This document shows positions 2,735 to 21,028 of a stretch of DNA of 22,071 bases, one piece after another (the stretch's first letter is position 1; every line of letters starts with the position of its first letter). A model generated the notes under the pieces. It ran no database searches. It was not told the origin of the DNA and was given only the letters and a program-made list of their open reading frames with translations. The translations under genes were made by a program, and so were the position numbers. This stretch comes from a virus, in the IMG/VR virus record IMGVR_UViG_3300006735_000303, positions 1 to 22,071 of that record. One strand, given 5' to 3'.

Positions 2735-4262
2735 CTTTATTTTTATGCTCTGTTTGTTTAGGCAGACTCACAACCCAATGTCTGCTGCTTATGTTTTGGA
2801 ATTTCTTTTTAGGTTGTGCTCCTCCTGTTTCTAAAAATCTAGTACATTCTTTTTCATTCCAATTGTAACCCATCTTTTTCATAAATGATCTAAAAGTCTC
2901 TAATTTAAATCTCATCTCTGTTTCATCTTTCCAGATGTTACCTGAATCTATTTGATCGAATTCTGTTGTATCTTCAACGTCTTCTAAGAACCTTGACATT
3001 CTAGAATTAAATACATCTTCTCTTTCTTCATGCTCATCATAGCCTTCCATATCTTGTTTGTTACTAATTAATTCATCAAGCCAGTCTCTATATGGATCTG
3101 GATCTCTTTTCGTAGGTTTAAGTGGTCTCCAAACAATATCATAATTTAATAGCTGCTCTCCTAAAAGCTGTTGTTGGTATAATTGTTTTGTAGATAAACG
3201 AATCGATTTACCTTGAATTGGTAAAATCCAATAAGGTTCTGGATATGAATTAACTTTTAAAAGTTTTCCAACTTCTGGTAACGCTTCATTAGCACCAATA
3301 CCTAATTTACGTTTAATGCACTCAGATGATACGCAATGCATTCTAGCGATTGAAGTTTTACATTTGTAGGCATAGTCTCTATTTTCAACTCCTTTAAATA
3401 TATTTTGTAATTCTTTTGGGTGTAATTTTTCTGCACAAACTTTACCCATCATTTCTCTTGTAAGTTCTTCGTACATGACAGGGTCTGGATTTATTTTTTT
3501 TGCAAGAACTGCAACATTAAACATAGCATCATTACGACCCTCACCTTTTTGAACTTTGTTTTTCATAAAATTAACAACACAAGGTGGGTAATCTTTAGTT
3601 TCATCATCTTGAAATATTTTTATTTTTTTAAACTCTGCTGGAGTTAATCTAAATTTTTTTATAAATTTAAAAAGATCATTAATCTTTATTGCGTTGCACT
3701 CATCATCCATAGCTACTCTTGTAGTCATATGTGCTTTTTGATATGGAAGATTTACAAAATTACCTTTTCTTTTATCGTCCCATTTTTCAGGAGATAAATC
3801 TACTTCATCTTGTGCAGGAAAAATATCTGTTGTTGTATCGTTTATTCCAAGATCGGATGCTATCTCAATTAATTTTTTTCGCATTGATGATGCAGCAACA
3901 ACACCATCAATAAATAAAATTAAATGGAGTCCGTTGGATTTTGATCTGAATGGTACGAGTGGGTATTTTCTTTTCCGTATAACCGTAATAATTTCCTTAT
4001 GCTGTATATTATAACGATCAACATCGATGACCCCCCAACTGCATGTATTATCATCTCGAATGGGAACTGATCCATAGTAAGCTTCTCCTTTTAAATGTTG
4101 TCTCCAATGTTCAATTGTTATTGGAGAAGGTTCAAGCCAATGTTTGAATTCTGCCTTACCCTTCGAGTTCTTTTTACCCGTTGGTTTAGAAACACCAAAA
4201 TATGTTTTTGAGCCCTGGAAGAGTTCTACAAACTCTTCCAAGGTTTTGTCAAGTAGGTCCAT
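2691..4262 (-). CDS. Archaeo-eukaryotic-type (AEP) DNA primase with PriCT-like and Cys-rich region
   Basis: This 523-residue protein is a candidate replicative primase. The N-terminal half shows AEP-fold motifs. Metal-binding WGVIDVDRY has D80 and D82, SKSNGLHLILF (107-117) has the S/H motif at S107 and H113, and GNFVNLPY lies near 167-174. A helical PriCT-like segment follows (about 243-297; RNDAMFNVAVLAKK at 243-256), then C301, C310 and C315 ahead of RKLGIG, which could bind zinc or an Fe-S cluster. The last 190 residues are not recognised. It lacks a helicase ATPase motif, so unwinding probably falls to the SF1 helicase that overlaps its 3' end. Its ATG follows the stop of the SSB-like gene by one base (TAG-T-ATG) with no Shine-Dalgarno, implying coupled translation. 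Confidence 0.8.
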   Translation of the reverse strand: MDLLDKTLEEFVELFQGSKTYFGVSKPTGKKNSKGKAEFKHWLEPSPITIEHWRQHLKGEAYYGSVPIRDDNTCSWGVIDVDRYNIQHKEIITVIRKRKYPLVPFRSKSNGLHLILFIDGVVAASSMRKKLIEIASDLGINDTTTDIFPAQDEVDLSPEKWDDKRKGNFVNLPYQKAHMTTRVAMDDECNAIKINDLFKFIKKFRLTPAEFKKIKIFQDDETKDYPPCVVNFMKNKVQKGEGRNDAMFNVAVLAKKINPDPVMYEELTREMMGKVCAEKLHPKELQNIFKGVENRDYAYKCKTSIARMHCVSSECIKRKLGIGANEALPEVGKLLKVNSYPEPYWILPIQGKSIRLSTKQLYQQQLLGEQLLNYDIVWRPLKPTKRDPDPYRDWLDELISNKQDMEGYDEHEEREDVFNSRMSRFLEDVEDTTEFDQIDSGNIWKDETEMRFKLETFRSFMKKMGYNWNEKECTRFLETGGAQPKKKFQNISSRHWVVSLPKQTEHKNKDVKFTKPKASWEDN

Positions 4263-5065: not shown

Positions 5066-5605
5066 TTATTTATTTGTTATTTTAGTTTTATTTGCAATAT
5101 AAACGCCAAACAAATCAAAAGGGATCTTCTTTCCACCTTCAACTTGTTCTCTTACAAAAGCCTTAAGAGTCATCGGTTCAACTTTTTCTTTTTTAGAATA
5201 AGCAAAACCATTCTCTTCACAAACTTTAATAAGCTCCGACACTTGATTGTCTTGGCCTCGGTTAAAATTAGCAGTGACTGTGTTCTTAATAAGATCTTCA
5301 AAGCCCTTACCTCTTAACCAACTGAAGGCCTCCTCAATTCTAGACTCAGGAATTTTAGCAGCGTAAAAAGGTTTTACTTCAACCTCAGTACCGTCTTTAA
5401 GTTTTATCTTAGAGACCCCTGCTTCCTGCATCATTTCAGGAATGATTCGTTCTTCCAAATCTCTAACTTTAGATTTTATATTTGAAAGCTCTTCTTCTTT
5501 TTCCTTATATTGCTTTTGGAGTTCTTGTAGTTGGTGACATTTGTCAGAAATTGATTTAATACTCTCTTGACTAATGTCAATGGATGACATTTTTTCTATA
5601 TCCAT
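5066..5605 (-). CDS. Conserved phage coiled-coil protein of the replication module, unknown function
   Basis: The protein has 179 residues. The first 55 are strongly charged and heptad-like, with many Glu, Lys and Gln, predicting a coiled coil. A compact region follows with KLKDGTEVEVKPFYAAKIP, an EAFSWLRGKGFEDLIKN helix and, near the end, TLKAFVREQVEGGKKIPFDL. This combination recurs in many podovirus and siphovirus early regions next to the SSB-like protein, but I know no proven function. It may be an oligomeric DNA-binding or recombination mediator, which is inference only. It is the promoter-proximal gene of the replication operon. It is preceded by the strongest Shine-Dalgarno in the window (AGGAGG, 5 nt from the ATG), which suggests high expression. 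Confidence 0.6.
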   Translation of the reverse strand: MDIEKMSSIDISQESIKSISDKCHQLQELQKQYKEKEEELSNIKSKVRDLEERIIPEMMQEAGVSKIKLKDGTEVEVKPFYAAKIPESRIEEAFSWLRGKGFEDLIKNTVTANFNRGQDNQVSELIKVCEENGFAYSKKEKVEPMTLKAFVREQVEGGKKIPFDLFGVYIANKTKITNK

Positions 5606-5675: not shown

Positions 5676-7103
5676 ATGTGGAAATATCCGTATAAAACTA
5701 AACCATACGACCATCAAAGAAATGCATTGAACGAATCAGCAGAAAAAGTTCAATGGGCATATTTTATGGAAATGGGCACAGGTAAAACAAAAGTCACAAT
5801 TGATAATATGGCTTATTTGTTTTTTCAAAGAAAAATTACAGCAGCATTAATTATAGCACCTAAATCTGTTTATACAATTTGGGAATCAGAGATAGAGGCA
5901 CACATGCCTGAAGTAATTAAAAAATGTATATATAAATGGAACATAGATAAACCAAGAGAATATTACAAATTAAATGAATTTAAGGATCTTAAAATATTTT
6001 TAATAAACGTTGAAGCTCTTTCTACAAAAAGAGGTTTCGAAGCATGTGAAGATTATTTAGCTAAAAATAAATTAAATTTTGTAGCACTGGATGAATCAAC
6101 CACCATAAAAAACCGATCAGCAAAACGAACAAAAAACATTTTAGGATTACGAAAATTGTCGTATATAAGGCGTATACTAACAGGATCCCCAATAACAAAA
6201 TCTCCATTAGATCTTTTTACACAATGCCAATTTCTAAGTCCAGAACTTTTAGGTTTTAGCAGTTATTTAGCTTTCAGAAATAGATATGCTGAAATGACTG
6301 ATATACCAGTTGGCTCTGGTAGATATATATCTGTACCAAAATACTACAAAAGGTTAGAGGAACTTGAAATAAGACTCAAACAATTTGCAACCAGAATACG
6401 TAAAGATCAATGTTTGGACTTAAAACCTAAGGTAAGATCTAAAAGATTTATTGAACTTGAGGGTGAAAGTAAAAAAATATATGAACGTTTACGTACAAGT
6501 GCACTCGCAATAGTTGAAGATAGCACAATATCTTTTTCTAATAAATTAACAGAAATTATTAAACTACATCAAGTTTGTAATGGATTTACCAAAGATGATG
6601 AAGGCAATATGCTTAAATTACACGATCATAAGCTCAAAGCACTTGAAGAAATTATTGAAGAAACTGATGGTAAAATGATCATTTGGGCAAACTATTTATG
6701 GAATATTCATGAGATAAAAGATTTTTTAGAAAAAAAATATGGCAAGGATTCTGTCGTATCTATTTACGGAGAAGTCTCAGTTTTAGATAGAAAAGATGCC
6801 GTAGAAAAAATACAAAAAGATCCAAAATGTAGATTTTTAGTGGGTAATCCGACAACAGGTGGTTTTGGGCTTACATTAACGGCATGTAATACTGTCGTAT
6901 ATTACAGCAATAGTTATAACTTAGAAGTCCGTATGCAGTCCGAAGATAGGGCTCATAGAATGGGTCAAAAGGGTACTGTGGTGTATGTGGATATTGTTAC
7001 AAAAAATACTCTAGATGAAGCAATATTAAAATCTTTAGTAAATAAAGGTAAGATAGCAGCAAAAACATTAGGAGAAGAAGATCTTAAATCCTGGTTGTTA
7101 TAA
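5676..7103 (+). CDS. SNF2-family (DEAD/DEAH superfamily 2) helicase
   Basis: This is a 475-residue SF2 helicase or translocase of the SNF2 type. Motif I is EMGTGKTK (about 32-39), Ia IIAPKSVYTIW (59-69), and motif II is the variant DEST (139-142) in place of DEAH. Motif III is TGSP (169-172), motif V GGFGLTLT (395-402) and motif VI QSEDRAHRMGQ (421-431). The last element with its two arginines is typical of SNF2/RapA-like proteins, and the length is that of compact phage versions. By family it translocates on double-stranded DNA using ATP. Here a role in recombination, replication restart or remodelling is inferred. It is the only complete plus-strand gene in the window. No Shine-Dalgarno precedes the ATG (sequence TTTTTTTAGATG). 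It converges on the exonuclease gene, with both stop codons in the palindrome TTATAA at 7098-7103. Confidence 0.92.
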   Translation: MWKYPYKTKPYDHQRNALNESAEKVQWAYFMEMGTGKTKVTIDNMAYLFFQRKITAALIIAPKSVYTIWESEIEAHMPEVIKKCIYKWNIDKPREYYKLNEFKDLKIFLINVEALSTKRGFEACEDYLAKNKLNFVALDESTTIKNRSAKRTKNILGLRKLSYIRRILTGSPITKSPLDLFTQCQFLSPELLGFSSYLAFRNRYAEMTDIPVGSGRYISVPKYYKRLEELEIRLKQFATRIRKDQCLDLKPKVRSKRFIELEGESKKIYERLRTSALAIVEDSTISFSNKLTEIIKLHQVCNGFTKDDEGNMLKLHDHKLKALEEIIEETDGKMIIWANYLWNIHEIKDFLEKKYGKDSVVSIYGEVSVLDRKDAVEKIQKDPKCRFLVGNPTTGGFGLTLTACNTVVYYSNSYNLEVRMQSEDRAHRMGQKGTVVYVDIVTKNTLDEAILKSLVNKGKIAAKTLGEEDLKSWLL

Positions 7104-15538: not shown

Positions 15539-16417
15539 CTCATCAGCAAATTTACCTGTATACTGGTGTTCTCCTACATGAGTGATTTCGTCCAACACGT
15601 AGGCATAACATTTACCTCCTATGTCCTTCCAAAGCTTACAAAAGCCAAAATCCTCCCCTAAATAGGTCTTATCAATTGGGTCATGTATTGTATCAAAAAA
15701 GTTCCACATGTTCTTTTTTAATATAACTTTACTGTTAATAACTGTGCTTTGTCTTATTTCTTTCTCTGGATATGCCTGTATCATTTTCTTAAAAACACTT
15801 TTTTTGATTAACATAGCTCCTGTAGGGCTATGAGTTACTTCAATAACACCATCGTTTATTCTTATATCTTTTCTATCAGGAACTTTCATTGGATATGTAT
15901 TACCTGCTTGAGCCATTTGCTCTGGTGTTTTTACTAATCCGTTTTTAACTTGACTTAAGGACTTATCCCATAAAAAGGCTTTTAGTGGATAAGGTACAGA
16001 TATTACATCTTTATCTGCTTTTATCATTTTAAAAACAGTTGATGAATTTAAAAATATATCAGAATCTATAAACAATAAATGTGTAGCATCAGAATCAAGA
16101 AAACCAGATACACATAAGTTACGACCTTGAGTAACTAAGGATGATTTAATTAATGAAAACTCTATTGGTATATTTCTTTTATGGCAGGCTTTTGTCAAAC
16201 TAATTATACAGTTTACATAATGCATAGATACTTCTGAATGACATGGTGTGCCTACAAATAAATGTATGTCACCGTGTTCTTTTGTTGTATTCCTAACTTC
16301 TTTTATAGTTTGATAAGTATCTTCGTTTGTATAAACTTTAGATGGTTCTTCAGGTTTTTCTTTCCAAATTGGTTTTCTTACTGCCTCGTGGTCATAGCCT
16401 TGTGGGTTGTCGCTCAT
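15521..16417 (-). CDS. GT-A fold glycosyltransferase
   Basis: This 298-residue protein has a nucleotide-sugar transferase fold. The strand LLFIDSDIF (114-122) ends in the metal-binding DxD (D118, D120). An upstream SLVTQGRN segment (93-100) fits the nucleotide-binding region, TGAMLIKKSVF (199-209) is typical of acceptor loops, and YLGEDFGFCKLW (252-263) carries the ED pair (E255, D256) of many inverting GT-A enzymes. It ends in ITHVGEHQYTG (278-288), where the histidines may complete the metal site. By family it moves a sugar from a nucleotide donor. The acceptor could be phage virion protein, host surface glycan or DNA; the sequence does not decide. AAAGGAGC precedes the ATG, and it overlaps the GT4 gene by 26 nt. 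Confidence 0.82.
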   Translation of the reverse strand: MSDNPQGYDHEAVRKPIWKEKPEEPSKVYTNEDTYQTIKEVRNTTKEHGDIHLFVGTPCHSEVSMHYVNCIISLTKACHKRNIPIEFSLIKSSLVTQGRNLCVSGFLDSDATHLLFIDSDIFLNSSTVFKMIKADKDVISVPYPLKAFLWDKSLSQVKNGLVKTPEQMAQAGNTYPMKVPDRKDIRINDGVIEVTHSPTGAMLIKKSVFKKMIQAYPEKEIRQSTVINSKVILKKNMWNFFDTIHDPIDKTYLGEDFGFCKLWKDIGGKCYAYVLDEITHVGEHQYTGKFADELITIK

Positions 16418-17333
16418 GTAAAGCTCCTTTCAAAAATGTTTCCCATTCTTTTCCTTTCTTTTCCCACGAATAAAATCTTTTAGCAAACTTTTGTTGTTCT
16501 TCAATGTGTTGTTGAATGTAGTCTTCATGTAAAGTATCACATGCCATATCTATAGCATGAGCAAATCGCTGAGCTAAAGCATCAAGGTTATTTGTATAAT
16601 TTACATAAATAGGCCACTCAGAACATGTTTCGAATAAAGCTCCAAAATTAGTTGTTATTAAATACAATCCAGAACTCATAGCTTCCAAAGCACCTATACC
16701 AAATGTCTCTTCAAACACACTTGGATGTGTCCACATTTGATAATCAGTAATTCTATTTAAAATATATTCATGTGGTTTATAACCTACGTAATTTACATTT
16801 TTTAAATACTCAGCTTGATCAAACAAAGGCTTGTATAAATGTTCGTTATCTCTGTGAAACTCCTCTCCATATATTTTTGTACTTGAATATACATCTAAAG
16901 TTACATTTGGATTTTTAATATATTGCATTGCTCCTAAAATAACGCTCAGGCCTCTCCATGGAGTCGAATGATATATTAATTTTATTGGATCACCTTTTTT
17001 GTAAACTTTTCTTTTTGGAAAATGATAACAACCATTTTTTATAACCATACTTTTTTCAGTAGGTATTTTAAAGTAATGCCTAAATTTTTCATAATTCCAA
17101 TGTGAATTGAAAACATACCAATCGTACTCATTATGTTTTTTAGGATCACTAAAAAAATCAAAAAGATTTGGTTGATCGTAAGAATTTTTTTGCCAAAGTA
17201 TATTTAATTTATTTGGATCTAATGGGACTTTGTAAGGTATAGAAGTACAAATTTGTACCTCATCTAATAATTTATTATCACAGTGCTTATACAACATTTC
17301 AAGTTGTAGCTCTGTTCCTCCTCTGGGCTGCAT
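16392..17333 (-). CDS. GT4-family (GT-B fold) glycosyltransferase, short N terminus
   Basis: This is a 313-residue retaining-type glycosyltransferase. RGGTELQLEML (4-14) is the Gly-rich loop of the N-terminal domain. LIYHSTPWRGLSVIL (119-133) marks the interdomain start of the donor domain, and PSVFEETFGIGALEAMSSG (204-222) contains the EX7E signature (E209, E217). The protein begins almost at the Gly-rich loop. A normal GT4 enzyme (350-400 residues) has a beta strand before it, and in-frame codons before the ATG meet a TAA within three codons. The short N terminus is therefore real or reflects a loss. The start uses the TAATG junction with the upstream 66-residue gene. Pairing with the GT-A enzyme suggests sequential sugar additions to one acceptor. 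Confidence 0.88.
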   Translation of the reverse strand: MQPRGGTELQLEMLYKHCDNKLLDEVQICTSIPYKVPLDPNKLNILWQKNSYDQPNLFDFFSDPKKHNEYDWYVFNSHWNYEKFRHYFKIPTEKSMVIKNGCYHFPKRKVYKKGDPIKLIYHSTPWRGLSVILGAMQYIKNPNVTLDVYSSTKIYGEEFHRDNEHLYKPLFDQAEYLKNVNYVGYKPHEYILNRITDYQMWTHPSVFEETFGIGALEAMSSGLYLITTNFGALFETCSEWPIYVNYTNNLDALAQRFAHAIDMACDTLHEDYIQQHIEEQQKFAKRFYSWEKKGKEWETFLKGALHERQPTRL

Positions 17334-17533
17334 TATTTTTTAGTGCTACCAAACAAAGTCAATTTTGCAACTGTTATCTCAACATGTTGAGAAAAATCAT
17401 CTGCAGTAGTGTCAGTGTTCGGATCAGCAACGTCAGCATCAAATGCATCTTTAGACTCGTAAACTTTACCTGTAGTCTTATGTTTGATTACTTCTTTTGC
17501 TTCAGCTGGGATTCTTGGTAGTTCATCACTCAT
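17333..17533 (-). CDS. Small acidic conserved phage protein, unknown function (66 aa)
   Basis: This 66-residue protein has no recognised domain. The N terminus is charged and is followed by VIKHKTTGKVYESKDAFDAD, an acidic DPNTDTTADDF stretch, and a C-terminal strand-like VEITVAKLTLFGSTKK. The middle looks like a small beta hairpin plus acidic loop. I remember near-identical short proteins from other marine phages but no function. It lies in a chain of tiny genes downstream of the tail protein. Its ATG overlaps the stop of the 43-residue basic protein (ATGA, 17530-17533) and its stop overlaps the GT4 start (TAATG), so it is clearly translated. A minor virion or chaperone-like role is possible. 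Confidence 0.6.
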   Translation of the reverse strand: MSDELPRIPAEAKEVIKHKTTGKVYESKDAFDADVADPNTDTTADDFSQHVEITVAKLTLFGSTKK

Positions 17534-17661
17534 GGTCTTCTTCCTTGTTTGTTGTATTTCTTATAATCTCTTTTCTCATTTTTTGAAAGCCTTTTCTTGT
17601 GCCTTCTTGGTCTCTTCCTTGGTTTTGGTCTTTCAACAAATGCTTTAAATTTTCTAGCCAT
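17530..17661 (-). CDS. Very basic 43-residue protein
   Basis: This is a short gene missed by usual length cut-offs. It reads from ATG at 17661 to TGA at 17530 and encodes 43 residues starting MARKFKAFVERPKPRKRP. It has 21 Lys or Arg (49 percent), one His and only three acidic residues, a net charge of about +18. The start lies 8 nt inside the preceding 113-residue gene, and the TGA overlaps the next ATG as ATGA, as for its neighbours. It ends KKYNKQGRRP. It resembles from memory the short KRPGxHKK...KKYxxQGR proteins found in cyanophages and pelagiphages. Binding to DNA or RNA, or packaging alongside virion DNA, is plausible from charge alone; function is unknown. Confidence 0.75.
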   Translation of the reverse strand: MARKFKAFVERPKPRKRPRRHKKRLSKNEKRDYKKYNKQGRRP

Positions 17662-17995
17662 TTTGTTGAGATCTATCTAGCAGTGCATATGAAACTATAC
17701 CTTGTATTTCATCTGCCGTACCTGCTGTCATTTTTAATATATCACCTGCTTCTAAAACTAACGTATAATTTATTATATCTTTTGAAGCAGATCCAGTGAC
17801 AGCCTCATTAAAAATTCTAAAGGTTGACGATGCAGAAGTATCTGTGACTTGGACATTTAAACTTACACCACTACCAGAACCATTATTTATCTGTATTTGT
17901 TTAATTAAAATAGTAGCATCAGTTGGACAAGTTAAGACACTCAACGTACCAGTTGAATTTAAATCTATACCTTGATTTTTATATTGTATTGTCAT
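17654..17995 (-). CDS. Small beta-rich virion-type protein (113 aa)
   Basis: Taking the ATG at 17995, the protein is 113 residues: MTIQYKNQGIDLNST, then alternating Val/Ile/Leu strands with Ser/Thr/Gly loops (TGTLSVLTCPTDATILIKQ, NYTLVLEAGDILKMTAG). This is the profile of small immunoglobulin-like or jelly-roll decoration and tail-appendage proteins of marine phages, with the VLEAGD element frequent in them. A TTG four codons earlier (18007) is possible. I prefer 17995 because it makes an ATGA overlap with the 54-residue gene, the pattern of this operon. Position downstream of the tail protein favours a structural role, but no partner can be named. Confidence 0.55.
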   Translation of the reverse strand: MTIQYKNQGIDLNSTGTLSVLTCPTDATILIKQIQINNGSGSGVSLNVQVTDTSASSTFRIFNEAVTGSASKDIINYTLVLEAGDILKMTAGTADEIQGIVSYALLDRSQQNG

Positions 17996-18156
17996 GATAT
18001 AAACCAATTAAAACTATCTTGTTCTTCTTTCAAATCAAATTGAAATGAAAAATTCAATTGATTTTTGAGTGTATCAATAGCTTCAATTATCTGTCTTTGA
18101 TTAGTTGATTCGTATTGTTCCTTTGGTTCAGGTACAAAAATATTTATTTTAGCCAT
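17992..18156 (-). CDS. Small conserved-looking protein of 54 residues, unknown function
   Basis: This is a further short gene below common cut-offs, reading ATG at 18156 to TGA at 17992. The translation begins MAKINIFVPEPKEQYESTNQ, continues RQIIEAIDTLKNQLNFSFQ and ends with an acidic DLKEEQDSFNWFIS. It is predicted to be a single amphipathic helix (about 18-36) flanked by beta or coil. Both ends are tied into neighbours: the start is a TAATG overlap with the 240-residue gene and the stop is an ATGA overlap with the 113-residue gene. It also fills the only 150-bp gap in this stretch. A virion accessory or adaptor role is a guess from position. Confidence 0.72.
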   Translation of the reverse strand: MAKINIFVPEPKEQYESTNQRQIIEAIDTLKNQLNFSFQFDLKEEQDSFNWFIS

Positions 18157-18878
18157 TATCTATTTCTACCTCTATCTGGAATATTTGTTTGTGTTGTATA
18201 ACCTAAAGGTGACTGACCTCCTGTTACAACATTTCCACTAGGTGTAGGTGTAGGTTGCTCAGGCATACCAGTATTTATTTGACCTGTTGACATATCTTGC
18301 ATTGTTTGTTTTTGTTGTGGACTTGCGTGATCTAATTTAATTTTTTGTAAAGCTAAAGCATCTTTTCTTTGTCTATCTTTTAATTCAGCTAATCTGTCTC
18401 TTAATTGTTGTGAATCTTTTTTCTGTAATGTTTTTGTTATAGTATCAATTCTTTTTTGATAAGCTTTATCTAAACCTATATTCATTTCTTGACCGTATTT
18501 ACCACCTGTTATTCTATTTAAAAAACCACCACTTATTGGGTTGTAACCCTGCATTAAATCACCCTCAGCTATTCTTCCAATGCTATCTAAGCCATAAAGA
18601 CCAGAAAAATAATCTCTACTTGCCGTGGTAACAGGATCTTCTTTAGGCAAAAGAGCTCCTAACAAAGCAATACTAGGTGGCACAAATTTTCTTTTTTTAC
18701 CTCCTCCTAAATTATTTTGTATTATTTCTTTACTACTTTTTTTAACTTGTTCATTATAAATAGGTGCGATACCTGCTTGTTGCGATAACATAAAATTTCT
18801 GTAAGTTCCATAATCACCATACTTAGCTTGTAAACCAGGATTATTTAAATACTCTGCTAGGTATTCATCTTGCATCAT
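18156..18878 (-). CDS. Virion-type protein with C-terminal helical and Pro/Thr-rich tail (240 aa)
   Basis: This is a 240-residue protein of no recognised family. It begins MMQDEYLAEYLNN, then a Tyr/Gly-rich region (LQAKYGDYGTYRNFML). A basic KKRKF precedes a short hydrophobic stretch (VPPSIALLGALLP, about 66-78). GGFLNRITGGKYG is followed by a long charged helix with DTITKTLQKKDSQQLRDRLAEL (about 144-165) and a disordered Gln/Thr/Pro-rich C terminus. The order (tail protein, then this gene, then small proteins) and composition suggest an internal or tail-associated structural component. Two adjacent ATGs exist at 18878 and 18875; the first overlaps the stop of the tail gene (TAATG). Confidence 0.5.
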   Translation of the reverse strand: MMQDEYLAEYLNNPGLQAKYGDYGTYRNFMLSQQAGIAPIYNEQVKKSSKEIIQNNLGGGKKRKFVPPSIALLGALLPKEDPVTTASRDYFSGLYGLDSIGRIAEGDLMQGYNPISGGFLNRITGGKYGQEMNIGLDKAYQKRIDTITKTLQKKDSQQLRDRLAELKDRQRKDALALQKIKLDHASPQQKQTMQDMSTGQINTGMPEQPTPTPSGNVVTGGQSPLGYTTQTNIPDRGRNR

Positions 18879-21028
18879 TATCTTTGTCCATCTGGTTGTA
18901 TATCAGCTCTAAATGTTCCATATCTCCAACTTTCATCTGTTGATGTATTTGCAACTTTTAAACTCGCAAATCTAGATCTTGCACGGGTATCTACTTTATC
19001 AGTGCTGCTTGTGATTGTAAATGGGCCCAAAGGAGATGATGTTGCGGTGTCCGTTGGAAAGTCTCTAAGGTTAATTGTTATTTGTGCATTGCCTGATATC
19101 AATTTAAAATCAGGCACAAATCTTCTCATGGACATAAAAAATTGACCATTACCTTCTACATCTAGATCAAAGGATCCTGATTGTATAAATGCAGGTATTG
19201 CTGTTTTATTACCTACATTATCAACTTGATTATTTCCCACCTCGTGAGCGTAGTATAGACTTGATCCATTTATGTTAGTAACACCTTGAATTACTGGAAA
19301 TGTAGGTGTTCCTGTTAAATTAAATTCAGTAGCATATGGCACGTCAAAAAGAGTTGCATCACTCCATGTTGTTCTTGCTAATGTTCCTGTTGTCCAAGTA
19401 TTCTCATCAAAATTGTACGTTACAATTCTGTCATTTACTGAAGATCCATTTTTTGGATAAAACCAATTTATCTCTGAATAAAGATTATTTAAACCTGCAT
19501 AAACTAATTCACCACTATCATAATTAATACCTAAATTATCTCCTTTACTTGTAAATACAAAATCTTCAACTAAACATGGAAGACTTTTTACAGTACCATC
19601 AAATACAAAAAATCCTCCTGCTTGGCCCATCCAATAAACTTTACCATCAATATATTTTATTGAATTCATGCCTATAGCACCACAATTTGATCCAACCTGT
19701 CTTACAGAAAACGTAAATGGAGGTCCAACAAACTGAATTATATAAGCAGACGTATCTGTTAAAATCAAAACGTAATCTTTACCTTTTGCAGCTCCAACAA
19801 TTTTAGTGCCAGAATCTAGTCTCAAAGTCCCTGCAGTATTTATTGATGTTGGCGAGTAGGTAGTTAAACTTTCTTGATCAGAAAATCTTACAAACATTTT
19901 ATCTTGTGTCGCAGTATTACCAATTGTTGTTTCAGTTCCTAATACTATTAAATGCCTATCTCTTTCAGATACAACTGTCATTACTGAAGCTGTTGGTGCT
20001 CCTGATATTAATGTTGCTCTTGTTGACAAAGCTGCTGGAACTGATGCTATTGGACTCCATGAAAAACTTTTTCCATTTTTAATTGTAGCAACTAAAACTT
20101 GACCAAAATTATCTAATGACCATGAACCAGGATCTAATACTACATTAGTTGTTAAAGATTGTTGTCCCCAGGCTGTATAATATTCAACGGTTGCACCAGA
20201 GGCATGTGCGGATCTAGTTCCCGCTACAGCTCTTGTTATACCTGTTAAGTCATTTGTAGATACACCGGTGTAGGAAATAAATTCTGTTCCAACCTTAATA
20301 ACTCCAGAAGTTGGAAAACCTGCAGTTGACGTTAGCGTAATGCTGGTACCAGAGCCTCCCGTACCTGCAGTGTCGTCTTGTAATAAACCGTTTAAGTTAT
20401 TTGTAAGTCCAGAGGCACCACCAAAAGTAGACGTGCCCCAACCATAACCTGCAGTTGATGTAAGAGGCCCAACTTTTTCATATGGGTTAATGGTCGCTGA
20501 TCCGCTGGCCGATACACTTGTACCTGCGTTAGATGCCATTGTAATAGTAAAAGTATCTAATGTTGGAACAGATATTACTTCAAATGGGTTATCTGTAAAA
20601 TTAGCTGCAGTATATCCTGCACCACTAGGTGGTGTTACTGAACTAAATGTAAATATATCTCCAACCTCTAGTCCATGTGTGGTTTTATTTACTGTTACGG
20701 TAGCTGACGTATTTACTGTAGTAAAGGTAGCTCCTGTAATTGCTGTCGATAAAGGTGTGATATCATAGAAAGCGTTTCCATAATAAACTAACAATGCTCT
20801 TGATGTTCCTAATACTGCATAAACATTACCATCTAAATCAGCGTAAATATGTTGCTGTCTGACAGCTCCTACTAAACTATTAGCTGTTAGCTGTTCCCAA
20901 CCACCTATTTTTTCAGGTAGTCCGTATCTGAATCTTACATTATCTCCGTCAACCCACTGACCTTCAGCTCCTACTTCAGTGACTTGTTTGTTGAATCCTG
21001 GTCTTATTAGTACGTTTGTTAATGGCAT
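18878..21028 (-). CDS. Tail/nozzle or DNA-stabilisation protein candidate (716 aa) with two inserted beta domains
   Basis: This is a 716-residue beta-rich structural protein. Its N terminus, RPGFNKQVTEVGAEGQW then DGDNVRFRYGLPEKIGGWEQL, is a pattern common in marine podovirus tail proteins. The repeats of W/Y-containing strands (for example VLILTDTSAYIIQFVGPPF, YWMGQAGGFFVFDGTV) suggest a beta-propeller core like T7 gp12 or head-completion proteins. Two insertions seem to interrupt it. Residues about 101-180 contain ATVTVNKTTHGLEVGDIFTF. Residues about 226-284 contain TLTSTAGFPTSGVIKVGTEFI and RAVAGTRSAHASGATV. Both types recur in unrelated phage and marine proteins. Assignment to the tail is by analogy. 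No Shine-Dalgarno precedes the ATG; a perfect extended -10 box ends 6 nt upstream. Confidence 0.6.
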   Translation of the reverse strand: MPLTNVLIRPGFNKQVTEVGAEGQWVDGDNVRFRYGLPEKIGGWEQLTANSLVGAVRQQHIYADLDGNVYAVLGTSRALLVYYGNAFYDITPLSTAITGATFTTVNTSATVTVNKTTHGLEVGDIFTFSSVTPPSGAGYTAANFTDNPFEVISVPTLDTFTITMASNAGTSVSASGSATINPYEKVGPLTSTAGYGWGTSTFGGASGLTNNLNGLLQDDTAGTGGSGTSITLTSTAGFPTSGVIKVGTEFISYTGVSTNDLTGITRAVAGTRSAHASGATVEYYTAWGQQSLTTNVVLDPGSWSLDNFGQVLVATIKNGKSFSWSPIASVPAALSTRATLISGAPTASVMTVVSERDRHLIVLGTETTIGNTATQDKMFVRFSDQESLTTYSPTSINTAGTLRLDSGTKIVGAAKGKDYVLILTDTSAYIIQFVGPPFTFSVRQVGSNCGAIGMNSIKYIDGKVYWMGQAGGFFVFDGTVKSLPCLVEDFVFTSKGDNLGINYDSGELVYAGLNNLYSEINWFYPKNGSSVNDRIVTYNFDENTWTTGTLARTTWSDATLFDVPYATEFNLTGTPTFPVIQGVTNINGSSLYYAHEVGNNQVDNVGNKTAIPAFIQSGSFDLDVEGNGQFFMSMRRFVPDFKLISGNAQITINLRDFPTDTATSSPLGPFTITSSTDKVDTRARSRFASLKVANTSTDESWRYGTFRADIQPDGQR

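Follow-up and report, generated by a model that had tools for sequence, protein, structure and literature searches.

Results

Gene K43 and its chain in the window

The window, that is, the whole stretch of DNA analysed here, is a 22,071-base IMG/VR virus record. The open frame at 17530–17661, for whose gene and product we use the working name K43, lies on the minus strand, with the ATG at 17661–17659 and the TGA at 17532–17530; at the same positions the plus strand is interrupted by a stop. The frame encodes a basic microprotein of 43 amino acids, MARKFKAFVERPKPRKRPRRHKKRLSKNEKRDYKKYNKQGRRP, whose 21 Lys/Arg and net charge of +18 had been given, with no strand named, in a first-pass annotation; our recount agrees (11 Lys and 10 Arg, two Glu and one Asp). 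The evidence for the gene comprises the open frame, a match to the family phrog_17967, homologues and dN/dS.

Both end overlaps described in that annotation are present. At its start, K43 shares 8 nt (17654–17661, minus strand) with the upstream gene, whose TAG stop is supplied by the K43 start ATGGCTAG. The upstream gene (17654–17992, minus strand) encodes 112 amino acids from the ATG at 17992 (the ORF list starts it farther up at a TTG, 117 amino acids), weakly matches phrog_1276, and is a neighbour kept in this phage type. At its end, K43 forms an ATGA overlap with the start of a 66-aa gene (17333–17533, minus strand), for which the family search yielded no match. The chain of small genes also includes a 54-aa gene of phrog_32936 (17992–18156, minus strand), common to HTVC023P and HTVC027P, and is followed by a group 1 glycosyltransferase gene (16392–17333, minus strand; phrog_2170, E 1.8e-23; PF00534 above the cut-off). 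The order of these genes (54-aa, 112-aa, K43, 66-aa, glycosyltransferase) is that of gp73–gp77 in HTVC023P, and the 716-aa gene at 18878–21028 is 52% identical to the matching part of HTVC023P gp72; by these sequence features, the window is an HTVC023P-type pelagiphage.

The only plus-strand gene of the window (5676–7103) codes for a helicase-like protein of 475 amino acids, and both GC skew and AT skew switch locally there. Another record, IMGVR_UViG_3300037585_002375, encodes a K43 protein identical to that of the window, the codons being identical too.

Family and distribution

K43 matches phrog_17967 (PHROGs v4, 41 positions, listed function unknown) with E 2.5e-17, residues 1–41 being aligned to 1–41, and is a plain member of this family, with a two-residue C-terminal extension as its sole addition and no difference found. 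All 27 aligned K43 members match phrog_17967, and Pfam and NCBIfam yield nothing above chance for either K43 or these 27 members. Among 15 phage records whose surroundings were read, the homologue lacks annotation in four (HTVC131P, Jormungand, HTVC304P, HTVC201P), in agreement with the earlier suggestion that the gene is sometimes missed by gene callers, and is listed as a "hypothetical protein" in 11. Hence the label "unannotated" is correct for the former records and wrong for the latter, and the novelty implied by it is unsupported, since the family is already in PHROGs. Among the papers searched, none mentions phrog_17967, and none deals with a small basic protein of pelagiphages.

The IMG/VR scan yielded at least 426 confirmed relatives of K43. 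In the tblastn search for relatives that had been proposed in the first-pass annotation, 12 out of 12 records are Pelagibacter phages; two family members as queries retrieve 16 distinct pelagiphages, and the family model adds HTVC027P, HTVC034P, HTVC008M, and HTVC031P, which brings the total to 20 cultured pelagiphages; these represent several lineages, and one of them, HTVC008M, is a myovirus. No match was observed in HTVC011P, even with the broad model, in Roseobacter CRP-212 with the family model, or, as a control with the K43 model, in any of 12 cyanopodovirus records.

A less biased count was based on IMG/VR records fetched by four other genes (80 loci each), of which the 35 longest out of 320 were tested; three of the 35 (G007, G017, and G030, which is HTVC010P) were already known carriers. 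In this sample, K43 is present in seven out of seven records of the HTVC010P type, seven out of eight of the HTVC023P type, seven out of 12 of the HTVC019P type (eight, counting a divergent copy in G023), and four out of eight of the HTVC033P type (mostly fragments). The test that found the copy in G023 found none in G024, a near-complete HTVC019P-type record of 39 kb. The weak positives (G025, G033, G035, G041, G043; E 1e-4 to 1e-5) keep the C-terminal end, and among 14 control genomes none matches at E 0.01 and one at E 1. K43 is not universal among these phages, and its distribution is unusual.

The possibility of a host gene was rejected: in a sample of 247 SAR11-type family genomes centred on G068, five give a match, three of these five having been fetched through K43 itself. 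The consensus peptide has no match in plasmids. Weak candidate matches in methylophage Melnitz (E 0.01) and Roseobacter CRP-9 (E 0.7), together with the link to phrog_516 described below, weaken the notion of a strictly pelagiphage gene.

Selection

K43 is a single open reading frame in all 102 sources (101 loci and the window). Disrupted frames in relatives, named in the first-pass annotation as evidence against a gene, were not seen: the frames are intact in 105 out of 105 loci compared (three duplicates dropped from the earlier set and six loci added), in a collection where broken copies are under-sampled because the loci were fetched by similarity, via matches to the window peptide with the best 80 of at least 426 kept. 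The median dN/dS, proposed there as a test, is 0.19 (interquartile range 0.10–0.29), with no pair above 1, as calculated from those 866 out of 5,460 pairs whose synonymous divergence was usable, which are not independent, and with the caveat that both ends of K43 overlap neighbouring genes. Third codon positions of the K43 loci vary approximately twice as often as the first and second ones. Thus, as had been supposed, K43 is a real gene, strongly conserved and under purifying selection, with numerous relatives and a confident family match.

Genomic positions

Upstream genes of K43 in 99 loci fall into 13 unrelated clusters. In 91 of these loci, the stop of an upstream frame falls in the interval from 4 nt ahead of the K43 start to 20 nt past it, and in the remaining eight no such frame was found. 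The overlap is exactly 8 nt in 39 out of 99 loci, spanning four unrelated upstream clusters, because the first codons of K43, ATGGCTA[AG], contain the upstream stop; this start is seen in 65 out of 99 copies.

The 112-aa-type gene of the window is upstream of K43 in 32 loci, and relatives of the 66-aa gene adjoin K43 in 32 loci. In HTVC023P, K43 is located between genes of these two types. HTVC027P keeps the 112-aa gene (gp78, 39% identity to that of the window), directly followed by a 64-aa gene (gp79) with no detected relation to the 66-aa gene of the window, and its K43 (gp19) lies 36 kb from gp78, beside peptidase M15. A constant partner gene was rejected given the 13 unrelated upstream clusters and the dissimilarity of gp79. 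K43 adjoins TerS/TerL in HTVC019P-type phages and the thymidylate synthase gene in Kolga, is close to peptidase M15/endolysin in HTVC010P, HTVC028P, HTVC100P, HTVC024P, and HTVC027P, and to a head gene in HTVC106P.

Seven pelagiphage genomes, of which three fall slightly short of completeness, were compared pairwise. In 15 out of 21 pairs, K43 ranks in the top four shared frames by identity, with 55–83% identity, most pairs having only 3–16 frames in common; it was undetected among the shared frames of HTVC027P and Kolga, and of HTVC033P and HTVC106P (E 1e-4, all pairs listed). These observations show K43 to be a portable gene that occupies different positions and is closely coupled to the gene upstream.

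Several local features were noted in passing. In HTVC022P, a direct repeat (39087–39330) duplicates the 3′ end of K43 and the start region of P022_gp52, and a second, partial family match is found at 39250–39303. In HTVC019P, about 50 nt at the 3′ end of K43 (5083–5132 of the excised locus) are shared, in a different frame, with the annotated beginning of the following gene, itself placed before the terminase large subunit. The HTVC010P locus contains further small genes with high identity across different pelagiphages (24531–24899, 25223–25585, 25937–26149, and 26149–26430), namely, phrog_2524, phrog_20984, phrog_24646, and a DUF6321 protein.

Residue conservation and predicted structure

In 75 unique proteins, K16, H21, K23, K27, Y36, and G40 are conserved in 100% of cases, and no Lys/Arg interchange is observed at R11, K16, R17, K23, K27, R31, and K34, this set having been fetched with peptide patterns that cover some of the same positions. 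In a second set of 25 unique members, detected with the family model among records chosen by other means, K16, K27, and G40 are present in all 25, K34 and Q39 in 24, Y36 in 23, H21, K23, and R41 in 21, and R17 in 20; its divergent members keep the ends of the protein, not residues 29–33. The charge ranges from +12 to +20 in the 75 proteins and from +12 to +19 in 26 independently sampled ones. The AlphaFold2 model of K43 (mean pLDDT 68, pTM 0.25, i.e., low confidence) has one helix at residues 27–37 and coil elsewhere, so that K43 is predicted to be mostly disordered. As K16, K27, and G40 are fixed in every independent member, the position-specific conservation speaks more for a particular contact than for mere charge in bulk.

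Discussion

Possible function of K43

The charge, predicted disorder, and conservation make nucleic-acid binding, as suggested in the first-pass annotation, plausible, and K43 probably binds nucleic acid of one kind or another. Our best reading, with a probability of about 0.35, is that K43 may be a late, disordered nucleic-acid binder with a widely shared target, RNA or the ribosome being favoured. The mostly disordered, strongly basic peptide would contact nucleic acid late in infection at few fixed residues, Lys16 and Lys27 together with the Y-x-x-Q-G-R end. A shared target is proposed because K43 is kept in phages that are largely unrelated in their head, tail, and replication genes and has no constant partner gene; it would be common to these infections, either the phage genome or a nucleic-acid machine of the host, and not a lineage-specific structural protein. 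The favoured target would be RNA, with ribosomal rRNA as the likeliest kind, and genome packing comes second.

Late expression we infer from gene position, as K43 is found in late modules, beside TerS/TerL, near peptidase M15/endolysin, and beside PAAR/gp25 in myoviruses; it is uncertain in Kolga because of the adjacent thymidylate synthase gene. According to PMC12753301, HTVC022P genes that share a temporal class lie next to one another; gp51 of this phage is not named in its main text. From the position-specific conservation we infer that RNA may be preferred over DNA. The ribosome as the target is the weakest step, and action on RNA or the ribosome is suggested here tentatively.

Under an alternative with a modest chance of being correct, put forward in the first-pass annotation, K43 would be a virion-packaged, protamine-like DNA condenser, made late, entering the head with the genome, and neutralising the packed DNA. 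This agrees with a charge of +18 in 43 residues, with the adjacent TerS/TerL in HTVC019P-type phages and the nearby head gene in HTVC106P, and with DNA being a target common to phages with unrelated capsids. However, conservation of composition rather than positions would be expected of a protamine-like protein, whereas in the independent set the positions themselves are fixed (K16, K27, and G40 in 25 out of 25, Q39 in 24, Y36 in 23), and K43 was not found in HTVC011P or in any of 12 cyanopodoviruses, the relatives of HTVC019P-type phages. The virion proteome of S-SM1, a carrier of the sister family discussed below, is reported in PMC3037559 as 41 proteins.

The adjacency of PAAR and gp25 to K43 in HTVC008M, and to the sister family in P-HM2 and S-SM1, could point to a tail/baseplate or head assembly factor, but the carriers are podoviruses, a siphovirus, and a myovirus with few genes in common (as compared in podovirus/siphovirus pairs), so that it is difficult to envisage an assembly partner common to them all, and we consider such a role unlikely. 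A sequence-specific RNA-binding regulator of late genes, either an arginine-rich-motif antiterminator or a translational regulator, would also be short, basic, conserved, and coupled to the upstream gene, as K43 is in 91 out of 99 loci; yet, with overlapping gene chains and 13 unrelated upstream genes, a constant nearby RNA site is not evident (no systematic search), and K43 is kept both with the phage's own T7-like RNA polymerase (HTVC022P, Kolga) and without an annotated one (HTVC010P), which makes this role, too, improbable. Least convincing is a cationic lysis or envelope accessory acting with holin/endolysin, since the five phages with a nearby peptidase M15/endolysin stand against the window and HTVC023P, where no lysis gene is near, and K43 contains no hydrophobic or signal segment.

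The preferred late binder of RNA or the ribosome may be extended further, at a low probability, to a single family spread across the oceans, uniting K43 with its cyanomyovirus sister, whose late phage peptides would dock to the ribosome or rRNA and shut down or mark ribosomes after virion-protein synthesis, in SAR11 contributing to rRNA-free "zombie" cells. Such cells have been reported for pelagiphage infection in PMC11066056, which covers both HTVC027P and HTVC031P, and both phages carry K43.

The sharing of K43 by otherwise unlike pelagiphages at such identity, with the gene moving between chains, indicates a requirement that these phages have in common when they infect their host cells. 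Pelagiphages, whose hosts are the commonest bacteria of the ocean, rank with the most abundant viruses on Earth, and we know of no function for most of their small genes.

Comparison with known systems

Among ribosome-associated proteins, ArfA ribosome-rescue factors (PF03889) resemble K43 in being small and basic, and ArfA-like genes are also carried by pelagiphages: HTVC027P (15768–15944, minus strand), HTVC034P (142–267 of the locus), and HTVC106P (1427–1552 of the locus, the only one above the Pfam cut-off), with a weak match in HTVC033P. This likeness is only a lead to how K43 might work. None of 27 K43 members matches PF03889 at E 10, and the ArfA-like proteins of HTVC027P, HTVC034P, and HTVC106P score against the K43 model no better than shuffles. 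K43 as a simple replacement of ArfA was rejected because both genes coexist in HTVC106P, HTVC027P, and, weakly, HTVC033P; no paper on phage-encoded ArfA was found in the literature search. Another small basic phage-borne protein, bS21 (Kolga gp46), is equalled by 1814 out of 2000 shuffles when scored with the K43 model, and, given the shuffle tests, K43 as a bS21-like or ArfA-like protein by sequence was rejected. Ribosomal Pfam/NCBIfam models match none of the 27 members, and the sole PDB profile match, 60S L6 (E 0.026), was taken as compositional.

A close parallel is provided by phrog_516 of cyanomyoviruses (T4-LIKE GC 394), whose members, similarly to K43, are small and basic, start with M-A, contain N-[KN]-x-K-K-R, and end with Y-x-G-Q-G-[KR]. 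In P-HM2, the phrog_516 frame (43770–43907) is located between PAAR and gp25, as is SSM1_099 (T4-LIKE GC 394) in S-SM1, and the K43 member of HTVC008M likewise adjoins genes for PAAR and for a gp25-like baseplate protein. The P-HM2 frame (4001–4138 of the excised locus) lacks an annotation in the matching reading frame, the overlapping gene PHM2_083 being read in a different one. Used as a query, it retrieves 455 records, for the most part from phages of Synechococcus and Prochlorococcus; four Edwardsiella/Klebsiella records look like chance matches. The literature search on GC 394 gave a single match, which is unrelated.

The two families do not match each other's profiles (no phrog_516 match for the window protein and no phrog_17967 match for the P-HM2 frame at E 1), except via the 47-aa member of HTVC008M, which hits both, phrog_17967 with E 1.5e-20 and phrog_516 weakly, with E 0.0044. 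With a model built from podovirus-like members only, and 2000 shuffles for each target, HTVC008M (21.4 bits) and P-HM2 (15.8 bits) score above all shuffles, and SSM1_099 (12.9 bits) is equalled by one. We regard phrog_17967 and phrog_516 as sister families at best, for which common descent is likely, and the K43 family may bridge pelagiphages and cyanomyoviruses.
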